The notes beneath the pieces were generated by a model, which was given only the letters and a program-made list of their open reading frames with translations, searched no databases and was not told the DNA's origin. From the NCBI GenBank assembly GCA_003242115.1, contig QBMP01000004.1, forward strand, positions 38,965-50,802: 11,838 nucleotides of DNA, read 5' to 3'. A program made the position numbers and the translations under genes. The stretch is from Phormidesmis priestleyi (GTDB lineage Bacteria; Cyanobacteriota; Cyanobacteriia; Phormidesmidales; Phormidesmidaceae). Of this stretch, positions 2,999 through 11,838 are shown in pieces (the first letter of the stretch is position 1; every line of letters begins with the position of its first letter).

Positions 2999-3712
2999 AT
3001 GTCACATTCTGTTGCTAAACAAGCCATTACGATAGAGCTACTCGAACAAATTCGAGCTGACGAGAAGCTGAAAATACTGATCGAAGATTTGTGGAGCTAT
3101 GGCAGCGATGGTATGTTCAATTGGTTTCAGTCGCCGCCTGCAACACCGTCTGGATATGTTCGCAATTCTGTTGTAGTTGAATATAAGAAAGATTATAGAG
3201 CTGATTATCCAGATTCGGAAAGTGAGCGAAATCACCGTCACTTTCCGTTTGAGCTTGAGCATGAATTAGACAGCTACTGCACAAAATTAGAACAGCTACT
3301 AACCCCTGTGAAATTAGCTGATCCAATGATTGCGCAGCGCAAGGTGTATTTACGCTCTCGCACAGACGAGCAAATTCATTCGTGCCTGACGGCTTACTTG
3401 ACAAAAAGACCTAAAGCGAGTTTTCCAGATCTAGAGAATGATTTTGCTAGTAACGTGATCTGGGGCGGTGAGCAACTCGATTTTGAGTCTGAGCTGATTT
3501 ATCTTATGCCGGATCAAGTTGGGGCGATCGCGCAAGTCCTTCACACAATCAATATAAAAGGGCTGCTCAGCTACTTTGACACTTCACAATACAATCTTGC
3601 CGACTGGCTCGAAGACTGGCTCAAAGATTGTGAGACCGCTGCTCACGCTCTCACAAAATGCTTTGTAGACGCTGCCGAAAAAGGACAGATTATAATGACA
3701 ATAGTCATTTGA
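2999..3712 (+). CDS. Protein with DUF1877-like C-terminal part, function unknown
   Basis: A soluble protein of 237 residues with no signal peptide or membrane segment. The first ~140 residues are acidic and helical and were not recognised. From about residue 155 the pattern NVIWGGEQLDFESELIYL, then MPDQVGAIAQVLHTINIKGLLSYFD, and finally FVDAAEKGQIIMTIVI resembles the DUF1877 family: a GGE motif, a Pro-x-x-Val-x-x-Ile-Ala helix, a Tyr-Phe-Asp segment and a final Ala-Ala-x-x-Gly-x-x-Ile strand. DUF1877 proteins often occur in toxin-immunity or polymorphic loci, but no toxin is seen here, so that role is only a possibility. The ATG at 2999 has a weak upstream AATAAG; no other start fits better. 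The stop codon overlaps a TTG that opens a short frame (3709-3843). The gene is probably real; the domain call is from memory of the family pattern. Confidence 0.55.
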   Translation: MSHSVAKQAITIELLEQIRADEKLKILIEDLWSYGSDGMFNWFQSPPATPSGYVRNSVVVEYKKDYRADYPDSESERNHRHFPFELEHELDSYCTKLEQLLTPVKLADPMIAQRKVYLRSRTDEQIHSCLTAYLTKRPKASFPDLENDFASNVIWGGEQLDFESELIYLMPDQVGAIAQVLHTINIKGLLSYFDTSQYNLADWLEDWLKDCETAAHALTKCFVDAAEKGQIIMTIVI

Positions 3713-3843
3713 TCGCCGCCGCCAAGCAATTTTTGAAAAGATTTTCAAGCGGCGCGATTCCCTTGGAAAGCTTCGCCACCGCATTCAAAAATCAGCCTGC
3801 AAGACCATTTCCTACGTATTTAACGGATACATTTAAACGATGA
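3709..3843 (+). pseudogene. Short reading frame or gene remnant after the DUF1877-like gene
   Basis: Directly behind the DUF1877-like gene, in another frame, 44 codons stay open from TTG 3709 (overlapping the previous stop TGA at 3710) to TGA 3843. The peptide begins LIAAAKQFLKRFSSGAIPLE and continues SFATAFKNQPARPF. The pattern of a helix, a short Ser-Gly-Ala-Ile turn and a Phe-rich helix looks protein-like and loosely recalls the start of small colicin-immunity-like proteins. There is no ribosome-binding site and no ATG start within these codons. It could be a translationally coupled small protein, a decayed downstream gene, or chance. Included at low confidence because it occupies the otherwise empty gap before the next hairpin. 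Confidence 0.2.
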
Positions 3844-3901
3844 AGCATCCGTGAGCCAACTTAAAAACAAGCTGAAGTAGGCAAACAACGCTGTATTCTT
3901 G

Positions 3902-3933
3902 TAGGGGATCACTGAACTTTACAGTGGCCCCTA
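3902..3933 (+). terminator. Strong inverted repeat upstream of the flavoprotein gene
   Basis: TAGGGG (3902-3907) pairs with CCCCTA (3928-3933), and CACTG (3910-3914) pairs with CAGTG (3922-3926). The arms are separated by a 2x1 internal loop and closed by a 7-base loop (AACTTTA). It lies 190 bp past the DUF1877-like stop codon and 50 bp before the flavoprotein ATG. It may terminate upstream transcription, although the T run that follows is interrupted (TAGTGTTGTATTG), or it may act in the leader of the downstream gene. Confidence 0.45.
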
Positions 3934-3982
3934 TAGTGTTGTATTGATCTAGCTGGTTAGTGCTGGAATAGAGATTGTTTTT

Positions 3983-5947
3983 ATGAGAGAGTTCCTACTT
4001 TCTTTTTATGTCGGTGCGACGCTCATTGTAGGCTTAGGCCAAACGCTCCCTGCTAAAGCTCAAGCAACCTCGAATGCTCCTGATCTGGCCAGATCAGCAG
4101 TCCCGTTGTCAGAGCCCCCTGCTCCCACCTGTCCGGCCATCAGAAACGCCCGCAGCTACGATGTGATTGTGTTTGGCGATGAAGTGCCGGGGGTGATGAG
4201 CGCCCTCAAGGTGCAAAGGGAATTGCAGGCGCGCAACCACAGCAGTAAAGTGGCGCTCATCACTGAAGGCGATACGGCCAATGGCATTGGCGGGCATTTA
4301 GTGCGGGGCGGACTCGCCTATTTAGACCGCAATCAGGTGCCACAGAGCCTTCGATCGCGCTACGGCGTTTTTGGTCAGCCCAGCCGCCTCTATCAAGAAT
4401 TTTTGAATCTGGGTCAAGTCCGCGAAATCGCCCTAGATCGCCTGACCGCCGCCCGCAACTTTCAGCAGGCGCTCAGCCGAGCGGGCGTTGATGTAATCGG
4501 CAAAGCAGATTTAGGCGCGGTGCAAACCTCTGGGTCTTTGGTATGCGCGTTCACAGCAGGCGATCATACCTACGCCGCCAAGCAGTTTATTGATGCGAGT
4601 CAAAGCGGTGAGCTTGCAGCCGCTAGCGGCGTCGAAATGATGCAGGGCCTAGAAGCACTGGGTTTTCCTAATAGCTCTTTGAGCATCGGTTTGATCCTGG
4701 ATATGTACGGGGTCAATATCGATCAGCTTAGAACGGTAGAATCTCAGCTGATCAAAAGGTTTTTTGATCCGCAGGATGCAGCGGCGCAAAAGTGGCTGAC
4801 AGCAGCTAGCGGCAATGACCCCACTAAGCGTCAGGAGCTGCTGCAAGGCTTGCTTGACTATTACGGTCAGCCCAAGCTGATGTACCAGGGAACGCCGGAT
4901 TCTGCCGATGTGCGATCGCTGGCCTTTAGCATTTTGGTGCATGGCTACTTGGGCAAAGAATACGACATCAAATCATCCGGCTTTTTGTTTGATCGGGCCA
5001 ATATTGCGATTTTGCCCGACCGGCTGAGCTTTAACGCGCTGCTGTTTTACGCCAATTCTGAAACGGCTCAGCAGCTCAGCACCAATGGAGCCAAACCCAC
5101 CCGCGAAATGCGCTCTACCGCCGAAGCGATCGCTGATCTGTTCAAGCGCATGGGGGTTGAGCGGGTAGAAATCATGCAGGAGCTATACATTCGCAACGCT
5201 GGCCAAATTGCCCATCCGATTGATGAGCTGTCGGCCACACTGATGGCGGCTGGTGGCATTCCGGGCAATGCAGCGCTGGGCACGTTTAGCTATCACCTCG
5301 ATGATCGCGGTGGCATTGAAGGCTTAGCGGAGCGGGTGAATGATTCAGCCCTGAGGCTGCTGAACTTCCGGCAAATGCCCGTGTTTAACTACGGCTTTCG
5401 CCAAACCCTACCGAGAGAGCGGCAAAATCTGTCGGTGCTTGGCCCCGCTTCTGGCTTCGGCGGCTTGGGCACCACCGCTGGCCGGATTGTAGAGCTGAAT
5501 GTGAGCGTCGGCGAAGGGCTTTCGATTGCGGTTGCCAAAGCCATTACCGAAAATCGCTCCTTGCAAACCATCAGCAACGCTGAAGTGGTTCGAGCCAAAG
5601 GCTATAGCTTAGAGACCTACGGCTATCGCACCGACAGCTATGGCGCAATCTCGACGCTAGAGCGACGGTTTCGCGGCGTTAACTACGAGCAGAACTATTT
5701 AGACGAAACCCAAGCCTACCTCGACCAGAAAAACTATGAAGAAGCCGCCCAAACCATTGCGCGGGCGCTGATTATCAACCCTCGCAACGCCTACGCTTAC
5801 TATCTCAGAGGCGTCATTCAAGCAGGAGCAGGCGACCATACGCAGGCCCGCGCTGATCTAGAGCAGGCGATCGCGCTCTATCAAGGCCAAGGTGATTCAT
5901 CTGCGGCTAGCAAAGCTAGAACCACGCTCGATGCCCTACCCAATTAG
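3983..5947 (+). CDS. Secreted FAD-dependent oxidoreductase with C-terminal TPR repeats
   Basis: A 654-residue flavoprotein. Residues 1-28 form a signal peptide (hydrophobic core FYVGATLIVGLG, likely cleavage after AKAQA), followed by a Pro/Ala-rich linker. The dinucleotide-binding strand is YDVIVFGDEVPG (59-70), where the usual GxGxxG appears as GxExxG. Then come ALITEG and the family-typical GIGGHLVRGGLAYLDR (101-116). Near residues 490-520 the stretch LGPASGFGGLGTTAGRIVEL matches the second FAD contact of the FAD_oxidored group (PF12831). From about 573 two TPR units follow (NYEEAAQTIARALIINPRN; AYAYYLRGVIQAGAGDHTQA), suggesting a protein partner. The substrate is unknown. Start ATG 3983 has no clear ribosome-binding site. 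The gene converges on the guanidine-transporter ATPase with a 12-bp overlap of coding ends and no terminator between them. The family call is good; export and FAD retention are inferred. Confidence 0.8.
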   Translation: MREFLLSFYVGATLIVGLGQTLPAKAQATSNAPDLARSAVPLSEPPAPTCPAIRNARSYDVIVFGDEVPGVMSALKVQRELQARNHSSKVALITEGDTANGIGGHLVRGGLAYLDRNQVPQSLRSRYGVFGQPSRLYQEFLNLGQVREIALDRLTAARNFQQALSRAGVDVIGKADLGAVQTSGSLVCAFTAGDHTYAAKQFIDASQSGELAAASGVEMMQGLEALGFPNSSLSIGLILDMYGVNIDQLRTVESQLIKRFFDPQDAAAQKWLTAASGNDPTKRQELLQGLLDYYGQPKLMYQGTPDSADVRSLAFSILVHGYLGKEYDIKSSGFLFDRANIAILPDRLSFNALLFYANSETAQQLSTNGAKPTREMRSTAEAIADLFKRMGVERVEIMQELYIRNAGQIAHPIDELSATLMAAGGIPGNAALGTFSYHLDDRGGIEGLAERVNDSALRLLNFRQMPVFNYGFRQTLPRERQNLSVLGPASGFGGLGTTAGRIVELNVSVGEGLSIAVAKAITENRSLQTISNAEVVRAKGYSLETYGYRTDSYGAISTLERRFRGVNYEQNYLDETQAYLDQKNYEEAAQTIARALIINPRNAYAYYLRGVIQAGAGDHTQARADLEQAIALYQGQGDSSAASKARTTLDALPN

Positions 5948-6721
5948 CGCCTGATCGACCGCCTGATCAGCGGAATGCGTCAGCAGATCAATTACCTGAT
6001 CTTGATACGCTTTAAAGCGGGGGTCTTCACGAGTGGCCGCAGTTCGCGCTGTGCCTAAGGCCACCTCAATTTCGGCGCGCACGGTGCCGGGTCTAGCCGT
6101 CATCACATAAATGCGCTGAGAGAGAAAAACGGCCTCTCTGACATCGTGAGTGATCATTAAAATGCTAGTGCCCGTGCGCGCCCAAAGATCCAGCGTAAAC
6201 TGCTGCATGGTCTCTTTGGTTTGGATATCGAGCGCGCCAAAGGGCTCATCCATCAGCAATATTTTGGGTTGACTCGCTAAGGCGCGGGCGATCGCAACTC
6301 GCTGCTTCATGCCGCCCGATAGCTGCTTTGGTAACGACTGGGCAAACGCGCTGAGCCCAACCATATCCAAATAGTAAGATGCCTGCTCTCGCCGCGCTTT
6401 AGCACTCACGCCTTGCAGCTTCAGGCCAAATTCCACATTTTTTTGCACCGTTAGCCACGGGTACAGCGTGTAGTCTTGAAAGACCATGCCCCGATCAGCT
6501 CCGGGGCCAATGACCGACTGTTGATCAACCGTAATGGTGCCGGTTGTAGGCTGATCGAGCCCCGCAACTAGCCTGAGCAGCGTAGACTTGCCAGAACCCG
6601 AAGCGCCGACGACACATACAAACTCACCTTGCTCCACATACAGATTGAGATCTTTAAGCGCAATCACCTTTCCTTTGGCCGTTGAAAAGTGTTTGTTGAG
6701 TTCAGAAACTTCGAGGTGCAT
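5936..6721 (-). CDS. ABC transporter ATP-binding protein of the guanidine operon (SsuB/TauB/NrtD type)
   Basis: Cytoplasmic ATPase that drives the permease encoded just upstream. It has 261 residues and every nucleotide-binding element: Walker A GASGSGKST (39-47), Q-loop Gln82 in VFQDYTLYPWL, signature LSGGMKQR (134-141), Walker B ILLMDEP (154-160) followed by the D-loop FGALD, and the H-loop His192 in MITHDVREA. Family resemblance is to nitrate/sulfonate/taurine importers. It is the last gene of the six-gene - strand cluster, 50 bp after the permease. By position it corresponds to the ATPase of the Synechocystis sll1080-sll1082 transporter, for which guanidine uptake has been proposed; specificity here is inferred from context. 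A 10-bp palindrome, TGAGATCTCA (6725-6734), precedes the ATG, where no good ribosome-binding site is seen. Its 3' end overlaps the convergent flavoprotein gene by 12 bp. Confidence 0.92.
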   Translation of the reverse strand: MHLEVSELNKHFSTAKGKVIALKDLNLYVEQGEFVCVVGASGSGKSTLLRLVAGLDQPTTGTITVDQQSVIGPGADRGMVFQDYTLYPWLTVQKNVEFGLKLQGVSAKARREQASYYLDMVGLSAFAQSLPKQLSGGMKQRVAIARALASQPKILLMDEPFGALDIQTKETMQQFTLDLWARTGTSILMITHDVREAVFLSQRIYVMTARPGTVRAEIEVALGTARTAATREDPRFKAYQDQVIDLLTHSADQAVDQALIG

Positions 6722-6771
6722 AAGTGAGATCTCAATTATTCAAGTGTCATTAACTGCCTCAATCAGCGCCG

Positions 6772-7626
6772 CTAATCAACCGCCCATTTGCAGGTCGCTC
6801 TCAGTACCCAGCGCAGCAGCAGATCGAACAAAAAGCCAATTACGCCCAGCAAGATTAAGTAGGCGAAGATTTCGTCTGTTCTAAAGAATTTTTGAGCGAT
6901 CGCAATCCGTTTACCCAAGCCCTCAGTGGCCGCAATCAGCTCAGCAACGACCACCAAATTCCAAGCCGATGCCATATTAATGCGAAAAGCATCGAGAATA
7001 TTGGGCACCACAAACGGCGTAATTACCTGCATCAGCGTTTGCCGCCGCGACCCGCCCAACGTGTAGGTAGCCTCTAATAAATGCTTCGGCACAAACTTGA
7101 CAGCATCCATAATCATCAGCGTATTAAAGAAAATCACGCCGATAAAAATCAGCGCAATCTTCGGTGCTTCGTCTAGGCCCAGATAGATAATCAGCAGCGG
7201 AATAAAAGCCGGAGCAGGCATATAGCGCACGATGCCCATGATGGGTTCGAGCAGCGATCGCACCGTCGCAAACGCCCCCATCCCAATGCCCAAAGGCACC
7301 GACAGCACCGCCGCCAGCAAAAATCCTAGCCCCACCCGCGTCACACTTGCGCGCACATCTTCCAGCAAATAGCCCTCAGCCCACAGCCGCCCAAACGCTT
7401 GCGCCACCTCTACCGGCGAGGGCAAAAACTTCGGATTCACCACCCCACTCGCCGACAGCGCCCACCACAGACAAAAAGGCACCACTATCGAGAGAATGCG
7501 CAGTCCCAAACTCAAATGGCCTGGAATCGGTTCACCCATTCGCCAAAAGGTTCTAGGCTTCCAGACTTTGTGATTAATCGTCTCACGCTGTAAAAGCGGC
7601 GGTGAAAATCCTTCAAGCTCGATCAT
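6772..7626 (-). CDS. ABC transporter permease of the guanidine operon (SsuC/TauC/NrtB type)
   Basis: Inner-membrane permease of 284 residues with about six hydrophobic segments. The first is near residues 40-60; others are near 97-118, 136-150, 157-173, 224-234 and 253-275. The cytoplasmic EAA-type coupling loop is EATYTLGGSRRQTLMQVITP (185-204), the contact site for the ATPase. The sequence is typical of the BPD_transp_1 domain in nitrate/sulfonate/taurine-type importers. ATG 7626 was chosen because AAGGAG (7638-7633) lies six bases upstream. An in-frame GTG at 7653 would place that Shine-Dalgarno sequence inside the coding region. It sits between the binding-protein gene (54 bp upstream) and the ATPase gene (50 bp downstream), completing a one-permease ABC importer that presumably works as a homodimer. 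Substrate assignment to guanidine rests on the riboswitch and gdmH in the same operon. Confidence 0.9.
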   Translation of the reverse strand: MIELEGFSPPLLQRETINHKVWKPRTFWRMGEPIPGHLSLGLRILSIVVPFCLWWALSASGVVNPKFLPSPVEVAQAFGRLWAEGYLLEDVRASVTRVGLGFLLAAVLSVPLGIGMGAFATVRSLLEPIMGIVRYMPAPAFIPLLIIYLGLDEAPKIALIFIGVIFFNTLMIMDAVKFVPKHLLEATYTLGGSRRQTLMQVITPFVVPNILDAFRINMASAWNLVVVAELIAATEGLGKRIAIAQKFFRTDEIFAYLILLGVIGFLFDLLLRWVLRATCKWAVD

Positions 7627-7632
7627 AAAACT

Positions 7633-7651
7633 CTCCTTGCTCCTTCCCTCC
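7633..7651 (-). promoter_or_regulatory. Clustered Shine-Dalgarno sequences deciding the permease start
   Basis: On the - strand the permease ATG (7626) is preceded by GGAGGG (7651-7646), AAGGAG (7645-7640) and AAGGAG (7638-7633). The nearest is six bases from the ATG, close to ideal spacing. This fixes the start at 7626 and argues against the upstream GTG. Other genes of the operon show weaker signals, so the permease may be translated independently and well. Confidence 0.7.
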
Positions 7652-7680
7652 ACTTCTTAGAGAGTAGAGATAACGGTGAA

Positions 7681-8724
7681 CTACGGGTTAGCTGCGGCAT
7701 AAGCTTTAACGAACTGATCGTCTAAAATAGGCGCTAGTTCCGGCGCTTCAGGAATAAACCCAACCCCTACCATAAAGTCAGCCATCTCTTTGGCGGCATA
7801 CGGCATATGCTCCATTCCTTCACCGTCACTAAAGGCTTTGAGATTATCTTCTATCGTAAAAAATCGGGTACCTACCTTGAGCTGTTGTAGTTCTTCAAGC
7901 GGGACACCGGCACGCTTCGCCATAATCTCATCGGCTTTCTCAGGATTTTCTTCCATAAATGCCAGCACATCGAACCAAGTCTTCACAATCGCCTGCACAT
8001 CTTCTGGGCGCTGATCAATGATGGTTTTACTCATCACTAACAAATCAGGAATCGCCCCCGGAAAATCAGCAGAAGTCACCAGTTCCTTGCTGCCCTCACG
8101 CTCTAGTGCCGTTAGCCAAAAAGGTGGGAAAGCGCCTACCGCATCGACTTGGCCTGCCGCAAACGCCGCTGCTGCGGCCCCGGTTTCTAACGGCACAATT
8201 TCCACATCATCGCGAGAGAGTCCTTCTTTTTCAAGCGCTAAGCTCAGCAAAAAGTCATCAACCACGCCTTCTTCAACAGCAACTTTTTTGCCCTTTAAGT
8301 CCGCTACGGTATTGATCTCTGCGGTTACAATAATTTTGTCATTACCAGCCGAGTTGTCGTTCACCAGCACGGCCACTTCGCCATTAATGGCATCAGCAGC
8401 AAATGAAATAGTGTCATTGAGGGTTTGGCAATTGCCATCAAGCTGTCCGGTGGCAAAAGCTTCCATCGATTCAATGTAGCCATCGAACCACTTCATTTCT
8501 ACATTCACATTATTGGCAGCAAAAAGCCCTTCTTGTTCGGCAATAGCCCAAGGCCACCAGCCTGCCCAATTGCTGTAGCCAATGACAATAGCTTTGGTGG
8601 GTTCTGTTGGGGCTGAACCGCTATCGGCAGCGCTGTCGCTTTTGGGCGCAGCGCCACAGCTTACTGTCACTAGCAGGGTACAAAGGAAAGCTAAACAAAG
8701 AGAAATGAGCTGGCGTCTTTTCAT
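7681..8724 (-). CDS. ABC substrate-binding lipoprotein of the guanidine operon (NMT1/SsuA-like)
   Basis: Solute-capturing protein of the importer, 347 residues, tethered to the outer face of the inner membrane. The leader MKRRQLISLCLAFLCTLL ends in VTVSC (Cys23), a lipobox-type site, followed by an Ala/Ser/Pro linker. The mature protein begins AIVIGYSNWAGWWPWAIAEQ, then EGLFAANNVNVEMKWFDG. Later come GQLDGNCQTLNDTISFA, the hinge region DLKGKKVAVEEGVVDDFLL and FAAGQVDAVGAFPPFW. This is the periplasmic type II fold of NMT1/THI5 and sulfonate/nitrate binders. Tryptophans at the mature N-terminus are typical of this subgroup and could form part of a pocket for a planar cation, which is inference. 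The gene lies 51 bp after hypB and 54 bp before the permease. ATG 8724 has no recognisable ribosome-binding site; upstream sequence is pyrimidine-rich. Guanidine as ligand is inferred from operon context and from the Synechocystis cluster. Confidence 0.88.
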   Translation of the reverse strand: MKRRQLISLCLAFLCTLLVTVSCGAAPKSDSAADSGSAPTEPTKAIVIGYSNWAGWWPWAIAEQEGLFAANNVNVEMKWFDGYIESMEAFATGQLDGNCQTLNDTISFAADAINGEVAVLVNDNSAGNDKIIVTAEINTVADLKGKKVAVEEGVVDDFLLSLALEKEGLSRDDVEIVPLETGAAAAAFAAGQVDAVGAFPPFWLTALEREGSKELVTSADFPGAIPDLLVMSKTIIDQRPEDVQAIVKTWFDVLAFMEENPEKADEIMAKRAGVPLEELQQLKVGTRFFTIEDNLKAFSDGEGMEHMPYAAKEMADFMVGVGFIPEAPELAPILDDQFVKAYAAANP

Positions 8725-8775
8725 AGCGGAAAAAAGGAATGAGGATTAGGAAAGTGGGAAAGCTTTAAAGCCGTG

Positions 8776-9477
8776 CTAGACCATCTGGGCAATCGACCGA
8801 TTAGCACAGGCCGTTACGGTCTGACGAATCCAGGTATACCAGTCTTCTAGGCCTTCGCCGGTTTTCGCCGATACGGAAATAATCGCGGCCCTTGAGTTAA
8901 TCTGCCTGACGTTGGCCACAATTTTGTCGATATCGACTTCTAAGTAAGGGGCCAAGTCTGTTTTGGTGATCAACAAGCAATCCGCTTCACGAAACATCAG
9001 CGGATATTTGAGCGGTTTGTCTTCGCCTTCGGTGATGCTCAAGAGCGCGACTTTGGCATGTTCTCCTACCTCAAATTCTGCGGGGCAAACCAAATTGCCG
9101 ACGTTTTCAACAAACATTAAGTCAAAGGCTTCGGGCTGCTGCTCATGCTCGAACTGATGCAAGCCCCCGGCGACCATTTTAGAGTCGAGATGACAGGCTC
9201 TGCCGGTGTTAATCGCGATCACCGGGGTGCCGCCTTTACGTAGTCGTTCGGCGTCTAGCTGCGTGGTCATATCGCCTTCAATCACGGCCATCCGCAGTTC
9301 GGCTTGCAGCGATCGCAACGTTTCTTCCAATAGCTGAGTTTTACCCGAACCCGGGCTGCTCATGATATTTAGGCAGGTGATGCCCCAGCGATCTAGGCGA
9401 TCGCGATTCGCATCTGCCCCCGCCTGATTGGCATGAAGCAAATTCATCTCTAAAACAGCGTCAAATGTTTGGTGCAT
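8776..9477 (-). CDS. hypB: HypB-type GTPase for nickel insertion
   Basis: GTP-dependent nickel metallochaperone, 233 residues from ATG 9477, acting with HypA. Visible elements are the P-loop SSPGSGKT (40-47), [15 protein letters not shown], the metal/switch region NTGRACHLD with Cys95 and His96, [18 protein letters not shown] with Cys131 (the nickel/zinc site of the G domain), a GTP-specificity motif TKTD (171-174) and SAKTGEG. The N-terminus lacks both the CxxCGC high-affinity nickel motif and the His-rich stretch found in many hydrogenase HypB proteins, so this is a minimal HypB2-type protein. No hypC, D, E, F or hydrogenase gene is nearby; its client is presumably the nickel enzyme GdmH two genes upstream. 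ATG 9477 follows AGGAG at seven bases; TTG 9480 is the less likely alternative. The gap from hypA is 51 bp. Confidence 0.95.
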
Positions 9478-9528
9478 CAATCATCTCCTAATTTAGTTTC
9501 CTAATTTAGAGTCTTTCAACTCAATCTT

Positions 9529-9891
9529 TTATGCAGCCACAGACTGCGAAAATTCCACCCGCTCAATCTTCAGCTCACGCCCAGAGCGAATATCGTCCAT
9601 CGGCGATTGGCAGCACGCGCAGCTATACTGCCTCCCGATGTCAGGGCGATATTCCTGCTGACAGGGGTGACAAAATGCAATCAAAGGCGTTTTTTTAATC
9701 ACCAGCTCAGCGCCATCTAAAAAAGTTCCTTGCGTCTGCACCTGAAACGCAAACTGAAGACTCGCAGGCTCCACCCCGGCAAAGTCTCCAACGGTCAAAT
9801 GTACTCTCTCCACCGTGGCCTGCTCAGGCTGCTGAGCCAGCCAGCCTTTCACCGTCAAAATCAGCGCCTTTGTCATATCGGTTTCATGCAT
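9529..9891 (-). CDS. hypA: HypA-type nickel metallochaperone
   Basis: Small nickel-binding chaperone of 120 residues that passes nickel to a target enzyme with HypB. It begins Met-His-Glu, with the N-terminal nickel-binding His2 next to Glu3. A zinc-ribbon follows with two CxxC pairs: CHPC (Cys74, Cys77) and CACC (Cys91, Cys94). Between them the HLTVGDFAGVEPASLQFAF segment is typical of the HypA fold. The start is fixed by TAAAGGA eight bases upstream, which overlaps the gdmH stop codon; only 12 bp separate the genes, implying coupled translation. In Synechocystis the paralogous hypA2 sits at the same place beside the guanidine hydrolase gene, and HypA/HypB are needed for active enzyme; that dedicated role is assumed here. 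Confidence 0.95.
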   Translation of the reverse strand: MHETDMTKALILTVKGWLAQQPEQATVERVHLTVGDFAGVEPASLQFAFQVQTQGTFLDGAELVIKKTPLIAFCHPCQQEYRPDIGRQYSCACCQSPMDDIRSGRELKIERVEFSQSVAA

Positions 9892-9903
9892 TTCTGTTGT
9901 CCT

Positions 9904-11088
9904 TTACTGCCATTCATCGCTGCCCAAGCTCATATCGGCAGCTTCATTGATATAGTCAGGCTTAGCACTGCGCGGCAACTGTTCAGAAAGCACCAGATGG
10001 GCTAGCGCATCACAAATTACTCTGGTGGCCAGCAGCGAGGTCATATCGCTCACATCGTAGGGTGGCGACACCTCAACAATTTCTAAGCCACAGACTTTTA
10101 CCTTCGAGACAATTTTGCCTAGCAGATAAAGCGCTTCACGCGGCAGCAGTCCACCCGGTTCAGGCCAACCGGTACCCGGTACAAAGCCTGCATCAATGCA
10201 GTCAATATCGAAGCTGATATAAACGCAGTCAGTGCCGTCAGTTGCCCTTTCGACCGCAAAGTCTACCGCTGCATCTAGGCCCATTTCGGTAATATCAGTC
10301 ACCGTGAGAATATTAGTGGCCCGCTCACGGCATACTTTCACCCCAGGGCGAGGCACTTGCCAGCCGCCAATGCCGAGCTGCACCAGATTTTTTGCCGGGG
10401 CATTCACGATGTTGGTGGCATGAAACCAAGGGCAGGTGTGCATCCGCTCATCAAGATCGGTTTCTTGCGTATCGACATGGCGATCAAAGTGAATAATGCC
10501 GACTTTTTTGTCGCCCAAGTGACGACAGACGCCGCGCACGGTGGGAAAGCCAATAGAATGGTCGCCACCGAGGATAATCGGTAAGGCTCCTGAGCTAAAA
10601 ATATGGGCAATGCCCTTTGAAATTTGGTCGAAAGATTTTTCGTTGTTGGCGGGAATGGTGAAAATATCGCCCACATCGCACATCGTGATGCTTTCGCGCA
10701 AATCCACGCCTAGCTCAAAGTTATAGGGCGTATACAGCGCTGAAATTCGGCGAATGCCCTGCGGCCCAAAGCGTGTGCCCGGACGGTAAGTAGTCCCTGA
10801 ATCGTGCGGCACGCCGACAATCGCGACATCATAATCTCCTACCTTACGGACATCCTCGATATAGGGCGCTTTGAGGAAGGTGTTGATGCCTGCATAGTGA
10901 GGCAGTTCGCCGCGAGAGAAGGTGGGGATGGTGCGATCGCGAATACTCTCAGCCGCTTCTAGGCCATACATCAGGCCCTGATCGACTTCTTGCTGCCAGC
11001 CGGTCATCGGCAGCCGAGCTTCTTTTTCTAAGGCGGAGTTAGCCTCACTGCGGCCATCTTGGCTGCGAAAGGTGGGTTGATCGCTCAT
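9904..11088 (-). CDS. gdmH: Nickel-dependent guanidine hydrolase (ureohydrolase family)
   Basis: Cytoplasmic enzyme, 394 residues, that hydrolyses guanidine to ammonia and urea. The arginase/agmatinase fold is clear: GGDHS with metal ligand His177, FDRHVDTQ supplying Asp202, His204 and Asp206, SFDIDCID supplying Asp294 and Asp296, and EIVEVSPPYDVSD near the C-terminus. An N-terminal extension of about 70 residues precedes the core, so it is longer than typical agmatinases and close to the 390-residue Synechocystis Sll1077. Agmatinases usually read DAHxD and GTGTPEPGG; here the equivalents are DRHVD and GTGWPEPGG. Together with the guanidine-I riboswitch upstream and hypA/hypB downstream, this supports guanidine hydrolase rather than speB. 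ATG 11088 was chosen; TTG 11160 also keeps the frame but lies at the T run of the leader hairpin. The ribosome-binding site is weak. The substrate is inferred from homology and context. Confidence 0.9.
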   Translation of the reverse strand: MSDQPTFRSQDGRSEANSALEKEARLPMTGWQQEVDQGLMYGLEAAESIRDRTIPTFSRGELPHYAGINTFLKAPYIEDVRKVGDYDVAIVGVPHDSGTTYRPGTRFGPQGIRRISALYTPYNFELGVDLRESITMCDVGDIFTIPANNEKSFDQISKGIAHIFSSGALPIILGGDHSIGFPTVRGVCRHLGDKKVGIIHFDRHVDTQETDLDERMHTCPWFHATNIVNAPAKNLVQLGIGGWQVPRPGVKVCRERATNILTVTDITEMGLDAAVDFAVERATDGTDCVYISFDIDCIDAGFVPGTGWPEPGGLLPREALYLLGKIVSKVKVCGLEIVEVSPPYDVSDMTSLLATRVICDALAHLVLSEQLPRSAKPDYINEAADMSLGSDEWQ

Positions 11089-11158
11089 AACGCTTACGCC
11101 TTTGGTTCGTGCCAAAGGAAATGGGTGTACAGGTGCAAAGCTACCCCTTTCCAATAGC

Positions 11159-11223
11159 AAAACCCGGTGAGGGAGCTATGGCGGCACCTTTACAACGGCA
11201 CCTGGTAGCTTCACTCTCCCGGG
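11159..11223 (-). terminator. Terminator-like hairpin of the riboswitch expression platform
   Basis: On the - strand CCCGG (11223-11219) and the following GAG pair with CTC and CCGGG (11171-11169 and 11167-11163). AGCT (11210-11207) pairs with AGCT (11177-11174), giving a long imperfect hairpin followed by TTTT (11162-11159). Its 5' arm is the last conserved segment of the aptamer (CCCGGGAGAG), so aptamer and hairpin cannot form together. Ligand binding should block this hairpin and let transcription reach gdmH, an ON switch. The T run is short, so termination strength is uncertain. Confidence 0.7.
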
Positions 11224-11378
11224 CTTTTATCCCTCCGTGTACTAAAGCGCTGCAAACCTAAGTTTACGGACTCTAGCGGTTTCTCTTGGACCAGACATTA
11301 GGCGATCGCTCACAAAAAGCAGCTTCAGTTAAAAAAGCCACTTATTCACAGCGTCACAGCTAATCGGAACCCTAGAAA
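11214..11378 (-). promoter_or_regulatory. Guanidine-I (ykkC class) riboswitch aptamer
   Basis: Cis-acting RNA that binds free guanidinium and controls the downstream operon. The - strand carries the conserved blocks of the class in order: TTTCTAGGGTTCCG (11378-11365), CTGGTCCAAGAGAAA (11294-11280) and ACGGAGGGATAAAAGCCCGG (11238-11219) running into GAGAG. P1 can form from TCT and GGG with the AGA and CCC of the 3' block. P2 is closed by ATTAG (11364-11360) with CTAAT (11301-11297) and is long, with a HIP1 octamer inside it. P3 is formed by CTAGAG with CTTTAG, capped by GTAAAC-TTAG-GTTTGC. At about 165 nt it is larger than usual, through P2. The gdmH ATG lies 125 bp downstream. Identification rests on remembered consensus blocks, which match almost exactly. 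Confidence 0.93.
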
Positions 11379-11492
11379 CAATCTTCTAGCTGATTAGTTT
11401 AAGAAAGCTACACATACGACCAAACTTAGGGCAAAGAAACCTCTTAACCTCACTTTGAGTTGCACAATAGCACCCAAACCTTAACGAGAAGT

Positions 11493-11521
11493 ACAATAGG
11501 CAAAAGTGTCAAAAGATACAA
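11493..11521 (-). promoter_or_regulatory. Candidate promoter for the guanidine operon
   Basis: On the - strand TTGTAT (11521-11516) and TATTGT (11498-11493) are spaced by 17 bp, three and four matches to the -35 and -10 consensus. A start near 11485 would give a leader of about 400 nt that includes the entire riboswitch. A second TATTGT (11469-11464) lies nearer the aptamer but lacks a partner. Weak evidence only. Confidence 0.25.
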
Positions 11522-11580
11522 AACGGATCGATTTTTCTAATTTTTTCAAAGTTTCAAATTCGTAGAGAGAGGCGACGTCG

Positions 11581-11637
11581 AAAAAATCCTTGTTGAAATA
11601 ACAGCATTAAGGCAAAGCGGATTTTTTGTTACTCAAT
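11581..11637. repeat. Perfect 9-bp inverted repeat with long loop
   Basis: AAAAAATCC (11581-11589) and GGATTTTTT (11629-11637) are exact complements across 39 bases. A smaller TGTT/AACA pairing lies inside the loop. The 8-bp palindrome CGACGTCG directly abuts the left arm. The T run at the right end gives it the look of a weak terminator for a rightward transcript, but no gene precedes it on that strand in the window. Confidence 0.35.
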
Positions 11638-11768
11638 GACAGAATTAAGAAATAAAATCGCTCGCGCAAACTGCCTTATGTACTGATAGTAAATCGCGCT
11701 ATAGTTTCACCTAAATGCGTTGTGCCGTACATCACATCGGCCAAATCGGTAAAGAAGGAACCCCTCAC

Positions 11769-11838
11769 ATGCGCCAAACCAGACTCATCCAGCGAGGGCT
11801 CACCCTCCTTACCACCGGCCTTTTTACGAGTGCCTTCC
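11769..11838 (+). CDS. N-terminus of an exported protein, truncated by the window edge
   Basis: From ATG 11769 the frame stays open to the end of the window. It encodes 23 residues that begin MRQTRLIQRG and continue LTLLTTGLFTSAF. The basic start followed by a hydrophobic stretch is a typical signal peptide or lipoprotein leader. AAGGA lies 10 bases before the ATG, a usable ribosome-binding site. It is transcribed away from the guanidine operon and shares its upstream region. Too little is visible to name the protein. Confidence 0.6.
   Translation, partial: MRQTRLIQRGLTLLTTGLFTSAF

Follow-up and report, generated by a model that had tools for sequence, protein, structure and literature searches.

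We found that the genes between positions 5936 and 11088 of the Phormidesmis priestleyi DNA analysed here (the window, 11,838 nt; G000:C384:38965-50802), together with a riboswitch aptamer upstream of them, very probably form a guanidine-inducible unit for nitrogen scavenging, and for detoxification as well, of the kind known as sll1077-sll1082 in Synechocystis. Behind the guanidine-I aptamer, six open reading frames (ORFs) follow on the minus strand: gdmH, for a putative guanidine hydrolase (guanidinase), hypA and hypB, for nickel chaperones, and the genes for the binding lipoprotein, the permease and the ATPase of an ATP-binding cassette (ABC) importer (Table 1). The parts, their order and their family membership were observed directly. 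The window belongs to a 4.78-Mb draft genome of 439 contigs, 92.8% complete; on the side upstream of the aptamer, the window end is the end of contig C384, and the visible sequence stops there.

A preliminary description of this DNA had named an aptamer, a GdmH-type enzyme, HypA/HypB and an ABC importer, of the SsuA/TauA type as we found, and each of these parts was verified in the order given. In the span that it had proposed, 5936 to 11378, the elements are all present and only the upper limit was off, as the aptamer reaches 11386, 8 nt beyond. The reading as a Synechocystis-type pathway was also borne out, except that the pathway is not hidden in the literature: the operon is not new because such clusters have been published for Synechocystis and marine picocyanobacteria (PMC8390497, PMC10119275). 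The window thus adds, in a cyanobacterium, a new, well-supported instance of a published pathway, which default annotation masks. As had been forecast, the best NCBIfam names were agmatinase, taurine ATPase and TauC, all below curated cut-offs; the matches to the SsuA family, HypA and HypB were above theirs. More useful than the new instance is a comparative result, that genomes have nearly one HypA for each guanidinase and each hydrogenase.

The window ureohydrolase probably hydrolyses guanidine to urea and ammonium in a nickel-dependent manner. Over the aligned stretches it was 85% identical to the Synechocystis GdmH chain (7esr/7oi1) and 68% identical to the guanidinase of Nitrospira inopinata (9fek), both of them characterised guanidinases with solved structures, and beyond the guanidinases the PDB matches dropped from 580 to 174 bits. 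The guanidine specificity of the Synechocystis enzyme depends on Thr97 and Trp305 (PMC11410670), whose equivalents, Thr100 and Trp308, were directly observed in the window protein. For the residue comparison and a tree we used 20 sequences, including 12 relatives chosen from 80 related loci (the best 80 of 567 confirmed, which are the basis for the counts out of 80 given here). The pair of Thr and Trp was present in the window protein, in both characterised guanidinases and in all 12 relatives, while Thr replaced the Trp in five of five others, namely E. coli SpeB, proclavaminate amidinohydrolase, guanidinobutyrase, guanidinopropionase and the second ureohydrolase of the genome. The first-position Thr alone does not discriminate guanidinases, because 3-guanidinopropionase has it too; the other four ureohydrolases have Ser. 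Residues H177, D202, H204, D206, D294 and D296, which are presumably the positions of the arginase-fold metal ligands, were identical in all 20 sequences. In the tree, the guanidinase clade had a support of 100/100 with the window enzyme inside it, apart from the branch of the E. coli agmatinase SpeB; we used the tree only for the split between guanidinases and other enzymes, because the bootstrap had not settled and the outgroup branches were very long. Both the identity with the Synechocystis enzyme and this placement agree with the GdmH-type assignment of the preliminary description. A search of PHROGs with GdmH gave no match.

It is most improbable that this enzyme is an agmatinase or hydrolyses another guanidino acid in polyamine or arginine metabolism. 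It belongs to the Pfam family Arginase, and its best NCBIfam name is agmatinase, with a score just under the cut-off of the equivalog TIGR01230 (172.0 bits compared to 174.3). However, Sll1077, the guanidinase of Synechocystis to which it is 85% identical, is reported to prefer guanidine to agmatine (PMC8390497), Trp308 stands where all five other ureohydrolases have Thr, and a guanidine aptamer lies upstream of the gene. The role of agmatinase could be filled by the second ureohydrolase (on C102, of the Thr type), which grouped with E. coli SpeB at 94/93, below the starred level and with a very long branch.

The element upstream of gdmH is a guanidine-I riboswitch aptamer, for which guanidine binding and switching are predicted. 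The covariance-model search proposed in the preliminary description gave a match to RF00442 above the gathering score and over the full model (positions 1-107 of 107). The first helical domain has a loop of 58 nt, compared to 7 in the model. At E up to 1, RF00442 was the only Rfam family matched in the window, and genome-wide it matched once only, at this aptamer. No sigma-70-like promoter was listed ahead of the aptamer on the minus strand. NtcA-type sites have the motif GTAN8TAC. The window had no exact match to it, and the 28 matches with one mismatch allowed were close to the shuffle mean of 25.5; we therefore claim no site for nitrogen control.

A predicted hairpin, which begins within the aptamer and ends before gdmH, fits a guanidine-ON switch. 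One of its closing strands, AAAGCCCGG, is the 3' strand of the aptamer and is complementary, with one G-U, to CCGGGTTTT; since AAAGCCCGG belongs to the aptamer, the two structures are mutually exclusive. The hairpin segment had a folding energy of -34.4 kcal/mol (z -3.4; among 200 shuffles, one was as stable), and folding the full leader at minimum energy gave this hairpin again. In 42 of 42 aptamers from related loci, the aptamer 3' strand pairs with a complement 36-58 nt downstream in a helix of 7 or more pairs; these are not 42 independent tests because the aptamers were selected by a match to a fixed 3' motif and many are related. Simple shuffles reached such a helix 71 times out of 2100 overall. 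No shuffle did so for 29 of the 42 aptamers, and at least 5 out of 50 did for five of them (L016, L021, L085, L093 and L124, the last with 28 out of 50).

We infer that the six genes are on a single transcript. The intergenic gaps are 12, 51, 51, 48 and 50 nt with the permease start at 7632, the fourth becoming 54 nt with the likely ATG at 7626. A scan of 5700-11838 showed no terminator-like site between genes; the three sites listed were all inside genes, compared to a shuffle mean of 7.3. Among the 80 related loci, 76 had a match to HypA and 75 to HypB, and the importer parts were detected less often (binding protein 50, permease 49, ATPase 46); as contig ends cut many loci, the absences are partly artefacts. 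All six genes were present in 45 loci, 43 of which had the order and strand of the window. Cyanobacterial titles were carried by 79 of the 80 loci, the best being from Adonisia and Leptolyngbya; L044 is titled Candidatus Gracilibacteria. Near the gdmH of the filamentous cyanobacterium LEGE 07170 (L027), no match to HypA, HypB or the importer was found within 8 kb on either side (tblastn, E ≤ 1e-5).

We also searched 58 genomes, the window's own and its relatives. Of these, 43 were taken as GdmH-positive, 39 with a full-length gene and four (G028, G029, G038, G041) with a partial or frameshifted one. In 32 of the 43, RF00442 was located upstream of gdmH at a distance of at most 600 nt (in G040 only a sub-threshold match was present); absences in this survey are weak evidence because its strict filters miss weak matches and some gdmH genes, such as that of G005, start at contig ends. 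In G008, ORFs lie between the aptamer and gdmH (L111:5712-6986), one with an IS1595-type transposase zinc ribbon domain. In G004, a divergent second aptamer (L109:6069-6179) points to the contig end; another contig, C17, starts with hypA and the binding protein gene. From these contig ends, the gdmH of G004 and its hypA and importer genes are perhaps transcribed apart, each under its own aptamer.

Given the context and statements on Synechocystis, the ABC system of the window would import guanidine. Synechocystis imports guanidine via the ABC transporter of the gdm operon, and the maturation proteins are described alongside this import (PMC12186494, PMC12930504). It is rather unlikely that the importer primarily carries methylguanidine, taurine, nitrate or a creatinine-type compound, with guanidine as a secondary substrate or a product. 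Its sequence family, that of sulfonate, nitrate and taurine importers, would fit such a substrate, as would importer homologues that stand under a guanidine-I aptamer away from gdmH in L114, L115 and L125, with a glutamine-synthetase-like and a Rieske-oxygenase-like gene. On the other hand, the window importer is directly behind gdmH-hypA-hypB under one aptamer, an order kept in 43 of the 80 loci, and reviews assign guanidine import in Synechocystis to the transporter of this operon (PMC12186494, PMC12930504).

With respect to the chaperones, we observed across the 58 genomes that copies of HypA are nearly as many as GdmH and hydrogenase together; these genomes are related and partly incomplete, so that the counts are not independent samples, yet the additive pattern is clear. 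Exactly one HypA was found in 23 of 23 genomes with GdmH and no hydrogenase, and two were found in 17 of the 20 genomes with both (one in G010 and G012, three in G022). Genomes with neither enzyme had no HypA over the cut-off (10 of 10), and those with hydrogenase only had one (5 of 5). For these figures, sub-threshold matches were disregarded, namely that of G038 to hydrogenase and those of G046 and G049 to HypA. Two genomes counted as GdmH-negative have short gdmH fragments (G017, 63 residues, 75% identity; G037, 69 residues, 86%). If both are recounted as GdmH-positive, the four figures become 23/24, 17/21, 9/9 and 4/4, and G017 becomes a GdmH-bearing genome without HypA, with a missing contig perhaps as the cause. 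HypA was located at most 3 kb from gdmH in 42 of the 43 GdmH genomes; in the remaining one, G004, they are on different contigs. These comparative observations may overlap with those of Itzenhauser et al. 2025 (PNAS).

In the window genome, the operon HypA was the sole HypA match, and the search for the nickel-iron (NiFe) hydrogenase large subunit (PF00374) gave no match; the same search was positive in 5 of 14 control genomes, in 4 over the cut-off. GdmH is therefore the obvious client of the HypA/HypB pair. It is very improbable that the two proteins work for a hydrogenase or urease and that their link to gdmH is incidental: both do exceed the cut-offs of the hydrogenase maturation equivalogs TIGR00100 and TIGR00073, but no large subunit is there to be matured as far as the search could detect, and the sole HypA is at most 3 kb from gdmH in 22 of the 23 genomes with GdmH and no hydrogenase. 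The ten genomes with neither enzyme, one of them (G017) with the 63-residue gdmH fragment, point the same way by having no HypA. In the relative G007, moreover, the second, non-gdm HypA was only 29% identical to the window HypA. The second HypB of G007 was 51% identical to the window HypB and has an N-terminal CxxCGC that the latter lacks; this second HypA is on a contig other than that of the G007 hydrogenase match. Given this relation of the HypA number to guanidinase and hydrogenase, finding hypA and hypB next to a ureohydrolase gene should not be taken to indicate hydrogen metabolism.

Judging from the sequence and the reported behaviour of this riboswitch class, the operon would be switched as follows. 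Without guanidine, the aptamer 3' strand and its downstream complement would form the strong hairpin, and transcription would stop before gdmH. With guanidine, the aptamer would retain the strand, no hairpin would form, and RNA polymerase would read through. The importer would then bring in guanidinium, HypA and HypB would load nickel into GdmH, as reported for the homologous system elsewhere, and GdmH would split guanidine into urea and ammonium. The breakdown could be completed by one of the genome's two ureases (two urease alpha genes were found). The second urease was considered as a contaminant, which was thought unlikely since three of the six congeners searched (G001, G003, G005) also carry two. 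Detoxification of internally produced guanidine, rather than scavenging, is unlikely to be the main role of the operon. Guanidine inhibits Synechococcus 7942, and expression of Sll1077 gives tolerance (PMC8390497); still, pure detoxification would hardly call for an importer in the operon, and ureases are present to use the urea.

Several observations weigh against a guanidine-controlled scavenging operon. The hairpin is followed by GCTATTGG, i.e., it is without an unpaired U-run; its four U are paired and then comes GCUAUUGG. For this reason it is not a textbook intrinsic terminator, and our confidence in the scavenging operon, though still high, was slightly lowered. A generic terminator scan, which accepts only loops of 3-8 nt, did not list the hairpin. 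The PDB sequences closest to the binding protein carry the names of nitrate, sulfonate and taurine binders; no guanidine binder is among them. The absence of a hydrogenase is not certain because the genome is an incomplete draft. Finally, the congeners G001 (L119) and G002 (L120) have all six genes, and a laxer Rfam search applied to these two, over 16 kb each, detected no aptamer; G004, the control and already positive before, gave two matches in the same run. Control has thus changed within the genus, and guanidine control of the operon is not obligatory.

Table 1. Elements of the guanidine operon in the window.
Element	Position	Strand	Evidence
Guanidine-I (ykkC) riboswitch aptamer	11214..11386	-	RF00442, 71.9 bits, gathering score 63, E 1.5e-11
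Predicted expression platform hairpin	11159..11227	-	Closed by AAAGCCCGG (11227-11219) and CCGGGTTTT (11167-11159)
gdmH, probable guanidine hydrolase (guanidinase), 394 aa, ATG at 11088	9904..11088	-	Identity, key residues, tree
hypA (ghaA-type), nickel metallochaperone, MHET N-terminus, two CxxC pairs	9529..9891	-	TIGR00100, 113.2 bits, cut-off 88.1; PF01155
hypB (ghaB-type), nickel GTPase	8776..9477	-	TIGR00073, 303 bits, cut-off 121.2
Substrate-binding lipoprotein (SsuA/NMT1 family), putative guanidine binder	7681..8724	-	TIGR01728, 298 bits, cut-off 163.5; PF13379, PF09084
ABC importer permease (TauC-like), likely start ATG 7626 behind GGAG	6772..7626	-	PF00528
ABC importer ATPase (TauB/NrtD-like)	5936..6721	-	PF00005

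Besides the ABC importer, the relatives showed a candidate second guanidine importer, often in its place. A 500-aa SSF (PF00474) sodium:solute symporter was found in 14 of the 58 genomes (E ≤ 1e-60), all of them GdmH-positive, with G028 having a partial gdmH. In 7 of the 14, a guanidine-I aptamer was located 95-153 nt upstream on the same strand. Symporter genes under their own aptamer were seen in L108:6741-8486 (G003, symporter gene at 6981-8486), L110:3167-4932 (G010), L112, L113, L116 and L117; in G003 and G010 the aptamer-led symporter is divergent from gdmH. In G042 and G057, going by the coordinates, the symporter follows hypA on the same strand at a distance of about 1.1-1.2 kb. The strict-filter survey showed no aptamer beside the symporter in G005, G009, G016, G021 and G022. 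The window-type binding protein was missing in 8 of the 14 symporter genomes. Among the 39 genomes with full-length GdmH, 8 had only the symporter, 22 only the window-type binding protein, 5 had both and 4 had neither (p 0.008 by Fisher's test, without correction for relatedness); adding the four partial GdmH genomes gave 8, 24, 6 and 5 (p 0.013). In a literature search, which was narrow and hence no proof of novelty, the symporter family was not credited with guanidine import. If true, the lead would mean a second guanidine uptake route in cyanobacteria. We consider it slightly better than an even bet that GdmH, HypA and HypB form a core with a dedicated nickel-insertion pair, independent of hydrogenase, and that the importer (ABC or SSF symporter, often with its own guanidine-I aptamer) and the control element are exchangeable even within one genus, some congeners having dropped the riboswitch, the symporter family being newly credited with guanidine import.

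Other genes were also seen in guanidine-I or gdm clusters. A glutamine-synthetase-like gene (PF00120) was found in L115 and L019 by scan and in L114 and L125 by similarity. In L114, L115 and L125 it comes first behind the aptamer and is followed by the binding protein gene and, at a greater distance, by the Rieske/ring-hydroxylating oxygenase gene of L115 or its homologue. In L019 the gene lies between hypA and hypB (3092-4468). An aptamer divergent from gdmH in G040 (L118:8387-14771) leads genes for an ATPase, a binding protein (26% identical), an MBL-fold hydrolase, a creatininase (PF02633), a glutamine-synthetase-like protein and a permease, possibly a route for creatinine or a substituted guanidine.

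Elsewhere in the window, the plus-strand gene at 634-1713 codes for an ABC substrate-binding protein of the TrpX-like PF04392 family (249.7 bits, TrpX cut-off 390), and no permease or ATPase domain was found in the neighbouring window ORFs scanned. The plus-strand ORF at 3983-5947 codes for a FAD-dependent oxidoreductase with C-terminal TPR repeats and, by eye, a signal-peptide-like start. It is convergent with the importer ATPase gene and overlaps its 3' end by 12 bp.

Among known systems, the comammox Nitrospira locus shares with the window the guanidine-I riboswitch and a homologous guanidinase (68% identity); unlike the window, comammox loci are without ABC transporters or nickel chaperones near the riboswitch (PMC11410670), and an APC-family permease is predicted to be used (PMC12186494). 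The metformin and dimethylguanidine hydrolases MefH/DmgH are also nickel-dependent ureohydrolases with hypA and hypB adjacent, as in the window, but they are heteromeric, from two ureohydrolase genes (PMC11399263). Their PDB chains scored 133-144 bits against the window GdmH, compared to 777 for the Synechocystis GdmH. The speB2-hypA-hypB-TauABC-like cluster of marine picocyanobacteria has the same ykkC riboswitch, guanidinase, hypA, hypB and TauABC-like transporter; most Synechococcus and Cyanobium with the cluster have a Rieske Fe-S protein gene downstream (PMC10119275), and none was found among the 10 window proteins scanned.

In the Synechocystis salina locus L076, all six genes stand in the order of the window, and the importer proteins of the window were 62-72% identical to those of this species. 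Synechocystis 6803 has a NiFe hydrogenase, unlike the window genome, where none was detected. Its hypA and hypB genes we take to be sll1078 and sll1079. The synteny with sll1077-sll1082 that had been proposed is upheld by the order in S. salina and by the description of Synechocystis sp. PCC 6803, where sll1077-sll1082 comprise the same gene families and the same riboswitch class as the window; guanidinase genes are often in operons with hypA, hypB and the genes for SsuA_fam (sll1080), TM_PBP2 (sll1081) and NrtD/SsuB (sll1082) under guanidine riboswitches (PMC8390497).

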